Source: Campylobacteraceae bacterium (lineage in GTDB: Bacteria > Campylobacterota > Campylobacteria > Campylobacterales > Sulfurovaceae). Taken from it: a stretch of 64,000 bases of DNA. Position numbers and translations under genes: made by a program. A model generated the notes under the pieces. The model searched no databases. It saw only the letters and a program-made list of their open reading frames with translations, and was not told the DNA's origin. Within the stretch, counting starts at the first letter, position 1. Every line of letters starts with the position of its first letter. The stretch is taken from contig JALWKP010000100.1 of the NCBI GenBank assembly GCA_027081355.1, forward strand, positions 46,668 through 110,667, in the 5' to 3' direction. Positions 4,110-8,402 of this stretch are shown one piece after another.

Positions 4110-4511
4110 ATGAAAAATATTTTATGCCTAATTGCATTGGTTTTGTTAACAGGCTGCGGCAATAATGCGATTATGAAAAATATTCACGAAAATACTAAGC
4201 TTTATGAAAATCTGGGTAATACAAAAAGAGTTTTGACAAAAGATGCAATTATTTATATACAATACACTAATAATAAAAAGATGAAAATTTTTACAATAGA
4301 TATTAATAGTAAAGAAAGAGATAAAGAAATTGAGATAACAAATTGCAAAATAAATGGAAAAACGGCAACTGTTGAGTTAAGCAATGCTAAAACCGTAAGC
4401 AATATTGACTGGACGGAAAGTTATACTGTAAGTTTGACTAAAGACAAAAATATAAAAAGCGTAATTGCATGCTCTTTAAATAATGGTGAAAAATTTAAAG
4501 AGTCATTTTAA
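4110..4511 (+). CDS. small putative lipoprotein
   Basis: A 133-residue protein with a short signal peptide and lipobox LLTGC; the predicted lipidated Cys is residue 17. The mature part is hydrophilic with beta-strand-like alternation and no domain I recognise. AAGGA precedes the start. Its 3' end overlaps the convergent slt gene by 4 bp. A lipoprotein is also found between mobB and slt in Campylobacter jejuni as I remember it, so the locus is probably ancestral. Confidence 0.75.
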   Translation: MKNILCLIALVLLTGCGNNAIMKNIHENTKLYENLGNTKRVLTKDAIIYIQYTNNKKMKIFTIDINSKERDKEIEITNCKINGKTATVELSNAKTVSNIDWTESYTVSLTKDKNIKSVIACSLNNGEKFKESF

Positions 4512-6040
4512 TTGACTCTTTTGTTTCTTTTTCTAAATTGGTCAGTTAATTCAGGATGAGGAAGTTCGTTTAATAAATCGGTAATTTTAACAGGCGAACC
4601 AAGCAGTTTTTTGTAAATTACATAATTTGCCAAAACTTTTTTACCGTAGTGGTTTGCCTGTTTGTTATCTACCATTTCTAAACTTATATACGGTTCATAA
4701 GCCCCTAACTTAAAAATGTTTTTTCTGATTAATTTTCTTGTATAACCGATACCTGCATTATATGCATAAGCTACAAAAAGAGGATGATAAAGGTATTTAT
4801 TTAGATAATTTAGATGTGTATTAGCAAATTTTAAAGATATTTCGGGGTTAAACATATCTTCTAATTTTACATTTTTACCTCTGACTTTTGCAATATGCTT
4901 AACCAAAAACGGCATAAATTGCATCATTCCCACTGCAAAAGAGCTAGAGACAGAAGCTGGGATAAAGTGGCTTTCTTGGCGTGCGAGCGCTAAAAGCATT
5001 GCCTGTCTGTCTATTGAATATTTTTTTAAAACATTTTTGTATAGTATAGGAAAATACTGTTTTGTATTTCTGCTGGCTTTATTTAAAATGTAGTAACAAT
5101 ATGCTGCCGTAATAGTCGAACAGTATGGCTGAGCCAGCTTAATAAGGTTTGTGTTTTTAGAAAAGATTTTTTTCTTTAACTTTGCCCAGGCTATCGGGTC
5201 GCTTATATTTATGGCTTTATTTTGGCTGTCTTTTATATATATGGTCGGCGGGTTGGGATAGGGGCGTTCCAGTATGTCCAATGCAATTAATTTATACATA
5301 TTAAAATCGTAGCTTTTTGCAACTTTTTCTATATATTTGCGCTGTTTTGTTGCCATATATAGCCAAAAAATAGCTCTGTCTGCATAAAATCTGCTTTTAG
5401 CTTTGCTAATTGCTAAATAAAAAAAATTTTTAGCATTTTGCGGATTTTTTCTTTTTAAATTTTTAAAACCAAGCAACATTAAATTGTTGTAGCTTATCTT
5501 ATTATAAGCATCTGGTTTAAAATTCAATAAACTGCTTTGAATTTTTGGCAATTTTTCTCTAAAAGTTCTAAAAATGAATTGATTTATTTGTTTATATTTA
5601 CTAATATTATAAATAATATTAGTATCAATATTATGGTCAAGCAGGGTGCGGTTTGCTTTGCCTGCTAAAAGAAAAACTATAAGCTTGTCTTTAGCAGAAA
5701 GTTTTGTCCAAACTTCGTAAAAACTGCCTGCGGATTTTAACTTTTTAATTAAAACATTATATCGTTTAATATCGGCATGGCTTGGTTTGTAAACTCTTTT
5801 TGGCAAATGCATACCTGTTTTGGCGCTGTAAGCTTTATCGAGTTTTCCGTTTACCCTGTAAATCATTTTCGCAGCTTGCAAAACCTCTTTTTTGTCGGTA
5901 TTTGGCGAAGAGATAAAACGCCAAATATAAAAATCTTTTTCTATAGATTTAGGCATACTCTTTAAATCGTTTAAAGAGAGTGCATTAAGAGCAGACAAAG
6001 ATATTATGGTTATAGATATTATTTTTTTTACAAATGTCAT
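4508..6040 (-). CDS. slt: soluble lytic murein transglycosylase
   Basis: Cleaves the MurNAc-GlcNAc bond of peptidoglycan to leave 1,6-anhydro ends, in the periplasm. Residues 1-22 form a signal peptide. Residues ~25-340 are a helical superhelix like the Slt70 U/L domains. The C-terminal lysozyme-like domain has the catalytic Glu in LARQESHF, followed by the typical VGMMQFMP and YAYNAGIG motifs. Length is 510 aa. The Shine-Dalgarno is poor. Gene order slt, yggT, gltX-type gene matches Campylobacter. Confidence 0.93.
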   Translation of the reverse strand: MTFVKKIISITIISLSALNALSLNDLKSMPKSIEKDFYIWRFISSPNTDKKEVLQAAKMIYRVNGKLDKAYSAKTGMHLPKRVYKPSHADIKRYNVLIKKLKSAGSFYEVWTKLSAKDKLIVFLLAGKANRTLLDHNIDTNIIYNISKYKQINQFIFRTFREKLPKIQSSLLNFKPDAYNKISYNNLMLLGFKNLKRKNPQNAKNFFYLAISKAKSRFYADRAIFWLYMATKQRKYIEKVAKSYDFNMYKLIALDILERPYPNPPTIYIKDSQNKAINISDPIAWAKLKKKIFSKNTNLIKLAQPYCSTITAAYCYYILNKASRNTKQYFPILYKNVLKKYSIDRQAMLLALARQESHFIPASVSSSFAVGMMQFMPFLVKHIAKVRGKNVKLEDMFNPEISLKFANTHLNYLNKYLYHPLFVAYAYNAGIGYTRKLIRKNIFKLGAYEPYISLEMVDNKQANHYGKKVLANYVIYKKLLGSPVKITDLLNELPHPELTDQFRKRNKRVN

Positions 6041-6215: not shown

Positions 6216-6488
6216 CTAAATATACAACCCATATAAAACTGATTTTAAAATGTTTAAAACAAAAATGATAACAATCGGCGATAAATCTATTCCGCTTATA
6301 ACCACAAAAGGCATATATCGGCTCACTAATGCGTATGCCGGCTCGGTTAGTTTGCGGATTGCCTGCACAATTTGGTTATACGGGTCTGGATTTACAAAGC
6401 TTAAAAGCGCTGAAATTATTATTATCCAGATATAAATATCTATTAATGTTGCCAAAAGTCCTAAAGTCGAATTTACTATTAAATGCAT
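6216..6488 (-). CDS. YggT family membrane protein
   Basis: A 90-residue membrane protein with two hydrophobic segments (about residues 5-28 and 65-88) joined by a loop with NPYNQIVQAIRKLTEPAY-like family signature residues. GGAGG sits 7 nt before the ATG. It overlaps the 3' end of the GluRS-like gene by 10 bp. YggT proteins are associated with osmotic tolerance or cell-division loci in other bacteria; the biochemical role is unknown. Confidence 0.88.
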   Translation of the reverse strand: MHLIVNSTLGLLATLIDIYIWIIIISALLSFVNPDPYNQIVQAIRKLTEPAYALVSRYMPFVVISGIDLSPIVIIFVLNILKSVLYGLYI

Positions 6489-7606
6489 TTTGCTACCTCC
6501 AAAAGATATGGATTTATGTATTTATAAATCTCTGGCAGTTTATTTTCGTTTTCTCTGCCGGTAATTATTCTAGCTAAAATTTTTTGTAATTCATTGCCAC
6601 TTAAGTTGCTTTTATCTTCAGCATATTTAACAAATTCGTCAAACTCGCTTATCATAGGTGCGTTTTTTATAATTTCTGCTAAAAGCTTCATTTTTTTATC
6701 GCATTTTTTTGCTGTAAATATTGAAACCATAATTTCATCTAACTCTTTTATTGTGCTTGCTTTATCCAAGAATAGCTTTAACATATCTCCTAGACTGTTG
6801 TCTGCAAAACCAAAAATTGAAGAGAGCTTTTTGCTGTCCATCTTTTTTAACAAAACTTTATTAACTTTTTTTAAATCTTCGATATTAAACTCTGTATTTT
6901 TTACTTGGGATAACTTTAAATCTTTAATGATTTGAGGTAAATAAGTAACTTTATCAAGCTGTTTCGGAATAAGCAGATAACTTATTATAGCATCGGGTAA
7001 TATACCTTCTTGTAAAAGTTCTCTTATTGTATTGCTGCTTTTTAATTTTGGTATATAAAAATATTCAATATTGCTATTGTAATTTAACATTTTATGAATT
7101 TTTTCTTCCGCTTTTGCAATATTTTTTTCTTCGCTGTTAAGAATAACTTTACTTGTTGCTATGCTCATATCATCAATTGCATCAGTGAAAATCTTAGTAG
7201 GATTTCCGTCTTCTTTTATTATGGTAAAGTTATCTATTTTGATACTGCTTTTATTTCCTTCTTTTAAAAGATTTTGGATTTCGCTATCTGTTAGGGCAGG
7301 GCAGTTGCATACTGTTTTATTGCAAAAACATAAATATGCCTTTTTATCTTTTACTAAATTTGTTGCTAATTGGCGGTATATATTTAAATTTTGGCTTTTA
7401 TAGATAGTGTTGCTTGTGTCTATTGCAAATTTTTTTAATATTTCTAGGTTGTCTTGCATAACGGTTTGTGCATTGTTTGCATTTATATCATCGATTAAAA
7501 CCGAAAAACTGTTGCTGTCTTGTTGTGAAATTATAAAATTAATCAGAGCTAGTTTTAAATCGTTAATATCTAACTCTTTAAGCACAGGAAGAGTAAACCT
7601 TAGCAT
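6479..7606 (-). CDS. GluRS-like pseudoenzyme at the gltX locus
   Basis: A 375-residue protein that aligns by eye, end to end, with Campylobacter glutamyl-tRNA synthetase. It begins MLRF like those enzymes and ends in a similar anticodon-binding domain. The class I motifs are gone. HIGH is replaced by LDIND (residues 12-16), and the RIEDTD segment by LIDDIN (37-42). The SPTYNFA segment survives only as NPTKIF (135-140), and the KMSKR loop is deleted (about 187-193). A C-x-C plus C-x-C pair at 93/95 and 100/102 resembles the GluRS zinc-binding region. The ATG at 7606 is chosen because AGGA lies 6 nt upstream and the alignment begins there. The frame is intact, so this is a retained protein, not debris. 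It probably cannot aminoacylate; its role is unknown. Confidence 0.8.
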   Translation of the reverse strand: MLRFTLPVLKELDINDLKLALINFIISQQDSNSFSVLIDDINANNAQTVMQDNLEILKKFAIDTSNTIYKSQNLNIYRQLATNLVKDKKAYLCFCNKTVCNCPALTDSEIQNLLKEGNKSSIKIDNFTIIKEDGNPTKIFTDAIDDMSIATSKVILNSEEKNIAKAEEKIHKMLNYNSNIEYFYIPKLKSSNTIRELLQEGILPDAIISYLLIPKQLDKVTYLPQIIKDLKLSQVKNTEFNIEDLKKVNKVLLKKMDSKKLSSIFGFADNSLGDMLKLFLDKASTIKELDEIMVSIFTAKKCDKKMKLLAEIIKNAPMISEFDEFVKYAEDKSNLSGNELQKILARIITGRENENKLPEIYKYINPYLLEVAKCI

Positions 7607-7640
7607 GATAAATCCTGTATTTAAATTTACTATCAAAATT

Positions 7641-7646
7641 ATTATA
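7641..7646 (-). promoter_or_regulatory. -10 hexamer for the GluRS-like gene
   Basis: Read on the minus strand this is TATAAT, 34 bp before the chosen ATG at 7606, in an AT-rich leader. Confidence 0.45.
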
Positions 7647-7690
7647 TACTAATATTAATTAATAAAAAGAGTAATATGGGAGTAAAAATG

Positions 7691-7719
7691 AAAAAGGAGC
7701 GACTTTATTTATCGTCGCT
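7691..7719 (-). terminator. Rho-independent terminator of the ppa-lipoprotein transcript
   Basis: On the minus strand, AGCGAC, a 10-nt loop and GTCGCT form a 6-bp stem followed by CC and five T. The lipoprotein stop codon TAA lies inside the loop, so the ribosome would occupy the terminator while finishing translation. Confidence 0.65.
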
Positions 7720-7878
7720 ACCTCCGGTTACAGTATTTACAACTGCACCGCCTGCAGAGCCGGCAACATCTAAAGTGGTCGAAGCGGTTTGACCGACTAG
7801 TTTAATTGGAGCAGTTACAATTTGTGTGCAGCCGCTAAGCATAATTAGCGTAAATATGGCAGATATTACTATTTTCAA
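7705..7878 (-). CDS. small lipoprotein (57 aa) downstream of ppa
   Basis: A short gene below the usual size cutoff. It has a hydrophobic signal peptide and the lipobox MLSGC with the acylated Cys at residue 17. The mature part is about 40 residues, rich in Ala, Gly, Val and Thr, and ends in Ser-Asp-Asp-Lys. TTG at 7878 is preferred because AAGG lies 6 nt upstream. A GTG at 7884 overlapping the ppa stop as GTGA is the alternative. It resembles the tiny TQIV(T)AP lipoproteins I recall from Campylobacterota genomes. The clean lipobox, good ribosome site and trailing terminator make it a credible gene. Confidence 0.75.
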   Translation of the reverse strand: MKIVISAIFTLIMLSGCTQIVTAPIKLVGQTASTTLDVAGSAGGAVVNTVTGGSDDK

Positions 7879-7880
7879 AA

Positions 7881-8402
7881 TCACGCCTTATAGTTTGCTA
7901 TTGCTTTTTCTAAAATTTCTGCCGCTTCTTTTTTGCCTTTGAAACCTGTAACCTTAACCCATTTATTCGGCTCTAAAATTTTGTAAGTTTCAAAGAAATT
8001 TTTAATTTTGTTAAGCGTATGCTCTGGTAAATCGGTAATTTCTTTAATTTCTTTAAAAGTAGGATCTATTTTTTCGTGAGGAACCGCAAGAAGTTTTTCA
8101 TCTATTCCGTTTTCGTCTTCCATTAAAAGCACACCGATTAATCTGCATTTAATAAAGCTGCCTGGAACTAACGGATATTCGCCTAAAACCAAAACATCCG
8201 CAGGATCGCCATCATCAGATAGGGTATTTGCTACAAAGCCGTAATTTGCAGGGTAAAACATTGCAGAAAACATTACTCTATCCACTTCGATAGCACCGCT
8301 GTCTTTATCTAATTCGTATTTGATATTAGAACCGTAAGGAACTTCGATTATCGCTTTTACTTCATCAGGGCATTTACCCGGACCTATTTTATTAATATCC
8401 AT
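7881..8402 (-). CDS. ppa: inorganic pyrophosphatase
   Basis: Hydrolyses pyrophosphate, driving biosynthetic reactions forward in the cytoplasm. It is a family I soluble enzyme of 173 residues with the metal-binding signature DGDPADVLV and the early ExPxGSNIKYE motif. GGAG precedes the ATG. It is followed by the small lipoprotein gene and a terminator. Confidence 0.96.
   Translation of the reverse strand: MDINKIGPGKCPDEVKAIIEVPYGSNIKYELDKDSGAIEVDRVMFSAMFYPANYGFVANTLSDDGDPADVLVLGEYPLVPGSFIKCRLIGVLLMEDENGIDEKLLAVPHEKIDPTFKEIKEITDLPEHTLNKIKNFFETYKILEPNKWVKVTGFKGKKEAAEILEKAIANYKA

Follow-up and report, generated by a model that had tools for sequence, protein, structure and literature searches.

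The gene gltX2 (6479..7606, minus strand) lies in a window of 64,000 nucleotides, by which we mean the whole stretch of DNA analysed. Its product resembles a glutamyl-tRNA synthetase (GluRS) and lacks the motifs by which the family performs catalysis. Is it a pseudogene, an altered enzyme, or a protein kept for another task?

A GluRS-like protein at the gltX2-yggT-slt locus

As the initial annotation had proposed, the frame is open, with 375 codons plus a stop, and its product is GluRS-like. The profile for bacterial GluRS (TIGR00464) matches the protein with an E-value of 2.6e-17 at 62.9 bits, below the curated cut-off of 289.95, and PF00749 scores 40.9 bits against a cut-off of 23.4, in a match that covers residues 14–97 only. 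Since 14 orthologues align over the length of the protein at 31–46% identity, a chance origin of this likeness is of no concern, and on the strength of these alignments we regard the product as a true relative of GluRS. It is 45% identical to the intact second GluRS (GluRS2) of a relative (G002) and 25–28% identical, in partial stretches, to the first GluRS (GluRS1) of its own genome. Together with the gltX2-yggT-slt gene order, this places gltX2 in the GluRS2 orthologue group of Campylobacterota. The predicted structure (pLDDT 93.7) has the GluRS fold over the whole chain and aligns to GluRS at residues 1–374, in agreement with the earlier claim that the anticodon-binding half is still encoded. 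An identity as GluQRS (YadB) was ruled out: the anticodon-binding half is present, GluQRS profiles score weaker (27.3 bits at best), and alignment of the model to YadB reaches only about residue 242.

Orthologue alignments likewise bear out the reported loss of the catalytic motifs. HIGH, which reads HIGN in intact orthologues, has become D-I-N-D (residues 13–16, 7559..7570), and RIEDTD has become L-I-D-D-I-N (residues 37–42, 7481..7498). The RGEDH position reads L-N-S-E-E (residues 156–160, 7127..7141), the same stretch that had been given as NSEEK, shifted by one residue. A gap near residue 189 (7036..7042) marks the deleted KMSKR loop. One of the 11 catalytic positions that we scored is left. 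The zinc-binding insert (residues 93–102, 7301..7330) is shortened, with C93, C95 and C102 remaining and a C95–C102 spacing of six residues instead of 24. In the segment that we take to be the anticodon loop (about residues 336–356, 6539..6601), which conservation and charge comparisons show to be relaxed, the Lys-Gly-Lys and PLR conserved in intact copies are altered; the presumed helical body of the anticodon-binding region (about residues 238–302, 6701..6895) is comparatively conserved in degraded copies. These and the other region names follow GluRS structures, and all of these features lie on the minus strand. Compared with a working GluRS, the protein retains the fold with its catalytic and anticodon-binding parts, as predicted, and lacks HIGH, RGEDH, KMSKR and a TIGR00464 score above cut-off. 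The annotation 'glutamate--tRNA ligase' at a gltX2-yggT-slt locus cannot be trusted to denote an enzyme.

gltX2 is first in the direction of transcription and is followed on the same minus strand by frames of 90 aa (6216..6488) and 510 aa (4508..6040), which we take to be yggT and slt, the names given by the initial annotation. The conserved slt-yggT-gltX order described there is found in the window and recurs elsewhere: yggT lies no more than 600 bases downstream of gltX2 in 125 of 130 orthologue rows, and slt is near yggT in other genomes too. The yggT ATG is embedded in the 3' end of gltX2 together with a Shine-Dalgarno-like site (6486..6500, minus strand), whose GGAGG at 6496–6500 falls within the LLEVA codons of gltX2. 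An overlap of the yggT start with gltX2 is seen in at least 110 of the orthologue rows, and in 77 of 108 the final 33 bases of gltX2 contain a Shine-Dalgarno-like site. The embedded start and its GGAGG may account for the C-terminal Glu-Val-Ala and Cys conserved in the genus. The 'normal promoter' ascribed to the gene did not hold up in a consensus scan of 7400–7900, which gave no match upstream of the gene and two promoter-like matches within gltX2, where 2.1 are expected by shuffling; a TATAAT-like box and an AGGA are visible upstream. A tRNA search of the 64,000-nucleotide window found none.

GlnRS and the loss of GluRS2 motifs

A PF00749 search of the assembly that contains gltX2 found four places: gltX2, GlnRS, GluRS1 and a contig-edge scrap. 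GlnRS, encoded by a 761-aa frame, ends in a GatB/YqeY-like tail, contains both HIGH and MSKR and scores 738 bits with TIGR00440. Judged by its sequence it can make Gln-tRNA directly, without the GatCAB route, and it was likely acquired from elsewhere. Its presence contradicts the suggestion that loss of activity in gltX2 would force a second GluRS to charge both tRNAs. The proposed check for other gltX genes returned one further GluRS, the 481-aa frame of GluRS1, in which HIGG and KLSKR are present. Near the 3' end of this frame (contig C125) is a run of unread residues, an assembly gap or a break. An apparent extra gltX copy on contig C44 was rejected as a contig-edge repeat of the GluRS1 start. 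The genome has GatB and no AsnRS over the profile cut-off, which presumably leaves the formation of Asn-tRNA-Asn to GatCAB.

We scored the 11 catalytic positions in each orthologue and classed copies with eight or fewer kept as degraded. The first set consisted of the same genome and 59 relatives. GlnRS was over the cut-off in 29 of these 60 genomes, with further traces as a partial match in G001 and contig-edge fragments in G007 and G010; GatB was found in 55 of the 60 and AsnRS over cut-off in none. Among the 51 genomes with a classed GluRS2, the copy was degraded in 27 of 29 with GlnRS and in one of 22 without (Fisher, 4.6e-11). The two exceptions with GlnRS keep nine (G035) and 11 (G023) positions. 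Outside these counts stand G015, with a C-terminal piece at a contig edge, and G042, with motifs that read by eye as HIGN, RIDDTD, RGDDH and KKMSKR.

Another 58 named genomes, fetched by GluRS2 likeness with an alignment as query (a single-protein query of contigs gave none), made up the second set. It came from the best 80 of 149 matches, 22 of the 80 loci being left out as having the same GluRS2 protein as a genome of the first set. The record titles were Sulfurovum, Nitratifractor, Campylobacteraceae or Epsilonproteobacteria. In this set, in which degraded copies are over-represented because the query alignment consisted mostly of them, GluRS2 was degraded in 35 of 40 genomes with GlnRS, judged by matches of at least 50% identity (10 of the 40 having GlnRS fragments alone), and in two of 18 without (p 3e-8). 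With the cut at nine or fewer positions, the counts become 28/29 versus 1/22 in the first set and 36/40 versus 3/18 in the second. Across relatives, motif loss in GluRS2 is tied to the presence of GlnRS.

Stages of decay are visible across these relatives, from 11 down to 0 of 11 positions kept. Five genomes combine GlnRS with a GluRS2 that keeps all 11 (G023, L099, L105, L128 and L129), the expected starting state of decay, and in nine more genomes with GlnRS the GluRS2 keeps 7–9. Against a GlnRS-first order stand three metagenome assemblies, G036, L068 and L119, with degraded GluRS2 and no GlnRS found, a combination that, if real, would be expected to be lethal. G036 is 72% complete and shows no GlnRS ends at contig edges, unlike G007 and G010; L068 and L119, of unknown completeness, are closely related to L096 and G028, which carry GlnRS. 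L135 and L136 have GluRS2 copies with 10 and nine positions kept and no GlnRS found, which would fit missing contigs or tolerated changes. Three genomes of the first set have GlnRS and no GluRS2 match: G041 and G044, where yggT-slt is present and GatB is kept, and G011, where a contig ends within the slt locus. In G037, G049, G052 and G056, GatB is present and neither GlnRS nor GluRS2 was found; both tRNAs may be charged there by one non-discriminating GluRS.

On a GatB tree of 55 rows (five genomes without a GatB match over cut-off were left out), the fewest changes were 11 for GlnRS and nine for GluRS2 degradation. In eight independent pairs, a mean of 6.8 changed together, 0 changed in opposite directions and 1.2 did not (median p 0.016), with 23 of the 52 branches starred, a caveat to this tree. 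In a GlnRS tree of 27 of the 30 frames (three partial ones were left out), G029 and G039 (L211 and L214) are sisters with support 100/100; since the two genomes come from separate families and lie apart on the GatB tree, a sideways transfer of GlnRS within Campylobacterota is likely. GlnRS adjoins GluRS2 in G023, G032, G051 and G055.

Purifying selection on degraded GluRS2 copies

Twelve pairs of degraded copies from relatives (both with at most four positions kept and identity of at least 0.76, among the rows listed, more distant pairs of higher dS being excluded) gave dN/dS of 0.139–0.263 at whole-gene dS of 0.18–0.71. Both copies of each pair lack KMSKR; the window gene, at most 46% identical to its nearest relatives among the orthologues compared, is in none of the pairs. 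Public data include a protein 98% identical to that of the window. The N half, the dead catalytic half, gave 0.147–0.297 with a highest upper 95% limit of 0.44. The two halves are constrained to much the same degree, which does not single out the helical body. A selection of five intact pairs gave 0.045–0.133; compared with the four closest intact pairs, selection on the degraded pairs is relaxed about three- to fivefold and constraint is clear. Neutrality would predict 9–46 stop codons per degraded pair, a count biased by the frames having been picked as open. A six-frame search of GluRS2 matches found internal stops only in G014 (one TGA) and in G040 (one TAA, in an intact copy). The degraded GluRS2 copies are thus under purifying selection. 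A simple pseudogene is ruled out by the open frame and by these ratios in relatives. The retained pseudoenzyme proposed by the initial annotation is the reading best supported, given the motif loss, the predicted fold and the selection on degraded copies, and we consider it very probable that degraded GluRS2 is a functional protein rather than a pseudogene.

To compare what degraded copies keep and lose, 108 distinct rows were divided by motif into 56 degraded (five or fewer positions kept), 39 intact and 13 in between; the comparison of conservation and charge used 54 of the 56 and 27 of the 39, other families being left out. The ratio of identity in degraded to that in intact rows was lowest in the anticodon loop (0.50), the zinc insert (0.51) and the catalytic blocks (0.54–0.62), and was higher in the stem-contact region (0.71), the next part of the anticodon domain (0.75) and the helical body (0.80, from pairwise identities of 0.57 and 0.72). 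The last helix reaches 0.95; ahead of the embedded yggT start its identities are 0.56 and 0.65, and the C-terminal conservation may partly reflect that start.

Possible roles of the retained protein

From these patterns we propose that gltX2 is a GluRS2 without the catalytic motifs of its family that has, somewhat more probably than otherwise, been kept as a folded, non-catalytic, partner-binding protein. GlnRS would have been acquired first, making Glu-tRNA-Gln synthesis by GluRS2 unneeded; catalysis and tRNA reading would then have decayed, repeatedly and by different changes, and GatCAB would have stayed, presumably for Asn-tRNA-Asn. We are highly confident of both steps, GlnRS first and then catalytic decay with GatCAB kept. 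A second role that GluRS2 already carried would preserve the protein and its fold. We favour a protein contact made through the helical body of the anticodon domain, a step drawn solely from the conservation of that body, with the GlnRS-YqeY fusion, GluRS1, GatCAB and YggT as candidate partners. That the role is binding of protein rather than of tRNA is a tentative reading of the sequences, to which we give slightly less than an even chance. Against any retained role, G041 and G044 lack gltX2, so the role is dispensable there.

The protein might instead be kept to bind tRNA, as a holder, chaperone or decoy of tRNA-Gln or tRNA-Glu, a reading close to the initial suggestion that it may bind tRNA-Glu/Gln. 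The GluRS fold predicted across the whole chain would suit such a role, as would the basic residues of the helical body (reference numbering), retained at 335 and 358 in all 54 degraded rows and at 308 in 85%, and T411 and G412 of the anticodon loop, kept in 47 and 43 of the 54. The surfaces that would meet the tRNA nevertheless look eroded. The zinc insert, which in E. coli GluRS positions the acceptor arm according to the available text of PMC4381286, is shortened in 46 of the 54 rows, with 42% of its cells deleted, the full 24 residues left in eight rows and 0–1 residues in four; in the window protein the KMSKR loop is absent as well. H. pylori GluRS2 is described as reading tRNA-Gln mainly at the acceptor stem (PMC9976931, in the part available), and it is the insert on that side that is most often cut. 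Relaxation of the anticodon loop matches that of the active site, and the loop's conserved lysines 398 and 400 (reference numbering) are basic in 15% and acidic in 50–57% of the 54 rows. The mean net charge is also lower, -14.3 in degraded against -6.4 in intact copies (p 2e-5), a shift absent from the GatB control (-14.8 in genomes with degraded GluRS2 against -16.8, p 0.39). The window protein itself does not share this acidity (net charge +2, pI 7.99), a point against the protein-contact reading. Overall the suggestion of tRNA binding is weakened, and we consider a tRNA-binding role unlikely.

Less probable still, gltX2 could be a leftover whose frame alone is selected, the translation of yggT being coupled to it, or whose decay is too recent to show. 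The overlapping yggT starts and Shine-Dalgarno-like sites, and the absence of GluRS2 from G041 and G044, are in line with this. Coupling, however, requires no folded 375-residue protein such as the model predicts, and it is the amino acids that are constrained, with dN/dS of 0.15–0.30 in the catalytically dead N half, which lies far from yggT.

A structural role for the gltX2 protein within a GatCAB complex, as a transamidosome scaffold for Asn-tRNA-Asn, is very unlikely. The prevalence of GatB and the failure to find AsnRS among the 60 genomes suggest a continuing need for GatCAB. GluRS of the T. maritima transamidosome, however, touches GatCAB through its zinc-binding insert (PMC4381286, available text), and since this is the most-deleted block in degraded copies, and six residues between C95 and C102 in gltX2, such a scaffold becomes less likely; G041 and G044, moreover, keep GatB with no GluRS2 found. 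Residual synthetase chemistry through an altered active site is scarcely credible: D188, D189, F183 and the RIED aspartate are kept in more than 90% of the 56 degraded rows and some copies keep 7–9 of 11 positions, but the window protein has a single scored position left and no KMSKR loop, and the motif changes differ among lineages with no new shared motif seen in place.

If GluRS2 has indeed been kept for a second role, GlnRS acquisition would be a natural experiment that removed the first job of GluRS2 and exposed the second. That GluRS2, an essential tRNA synthetase, repeatedly became one kind of non-enzymatic protein in one family after a foreign GlnRS had assumed its chemistry, and had always carried a hidden second job, is a broader possibility that we hold with some reserve. 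These bacteria have likely changed the way they make Gln-tRNA.

Among known systems, the closest is GluRS2 of H. pylori, which would belong to the same orthologous group as gltX2 and is likened here through the description of the enzyme in the available text of PMC9976931. The intact GluRS2 copies of relatives keep HIGN, RIEDTD, RGEDH and KMSKR, with yggT downstream. Unlike the H. pylori enzyme as described there, gltX2 lacks the motifs, the greater part of the zinc insert and some of the loop that reads the anticodon, and stands in a genome with GlnRS. A 2014 study listed six epsilonproteobacteria with both GluRS2 and GlnRS, including Sulfurovum and Nitratifractor, proposed horizontal transfer of their GlnRS from Deinococcus-Thermus, and gave the GluRS2 motif as H-phi-G-N; the available text shares with our results the co-occurrence of the two enzymes and makes no mention of degradation, of its tie to GlnRS or of retention (PMC3927822). 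A search of open-licence papers by title returned none on degraded GluRS2 in Campylobacterota.

The second GluRS of T. maritima, as told in the available part of PMC3927822, is reported to charge neither tRNA. It is said there to have arisen by duplication, whereas gltX2 is the orthologue of a presumably working enzyme, and motif loss of the gltX2 type occurred in many lineages; the T. maritima case is compared here by its description. By its predicted fold, its lost residues and the selection on its orthologues, the gltX2 protein fits among the aminoacyl-tRNA-synthetase-like pseudoenzymes. HisZ and other such proteins, in the text available from PMC9437257, have a synthetase fold, no aminoacylation and another role, HisZ being a regulator of HisG. 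Whereas HisZ is a paralogue whose partner is known, the change in GluRS2 recurred across lineages. Synthetase-like proteins are usually traced to duplications, which makes old and new roles hard to separate. Here a single orthologue has decayed in many lineages and yet been kept, so that a moonlighting role becomes directly testable and can be ordered against the arrival of GlnRS.
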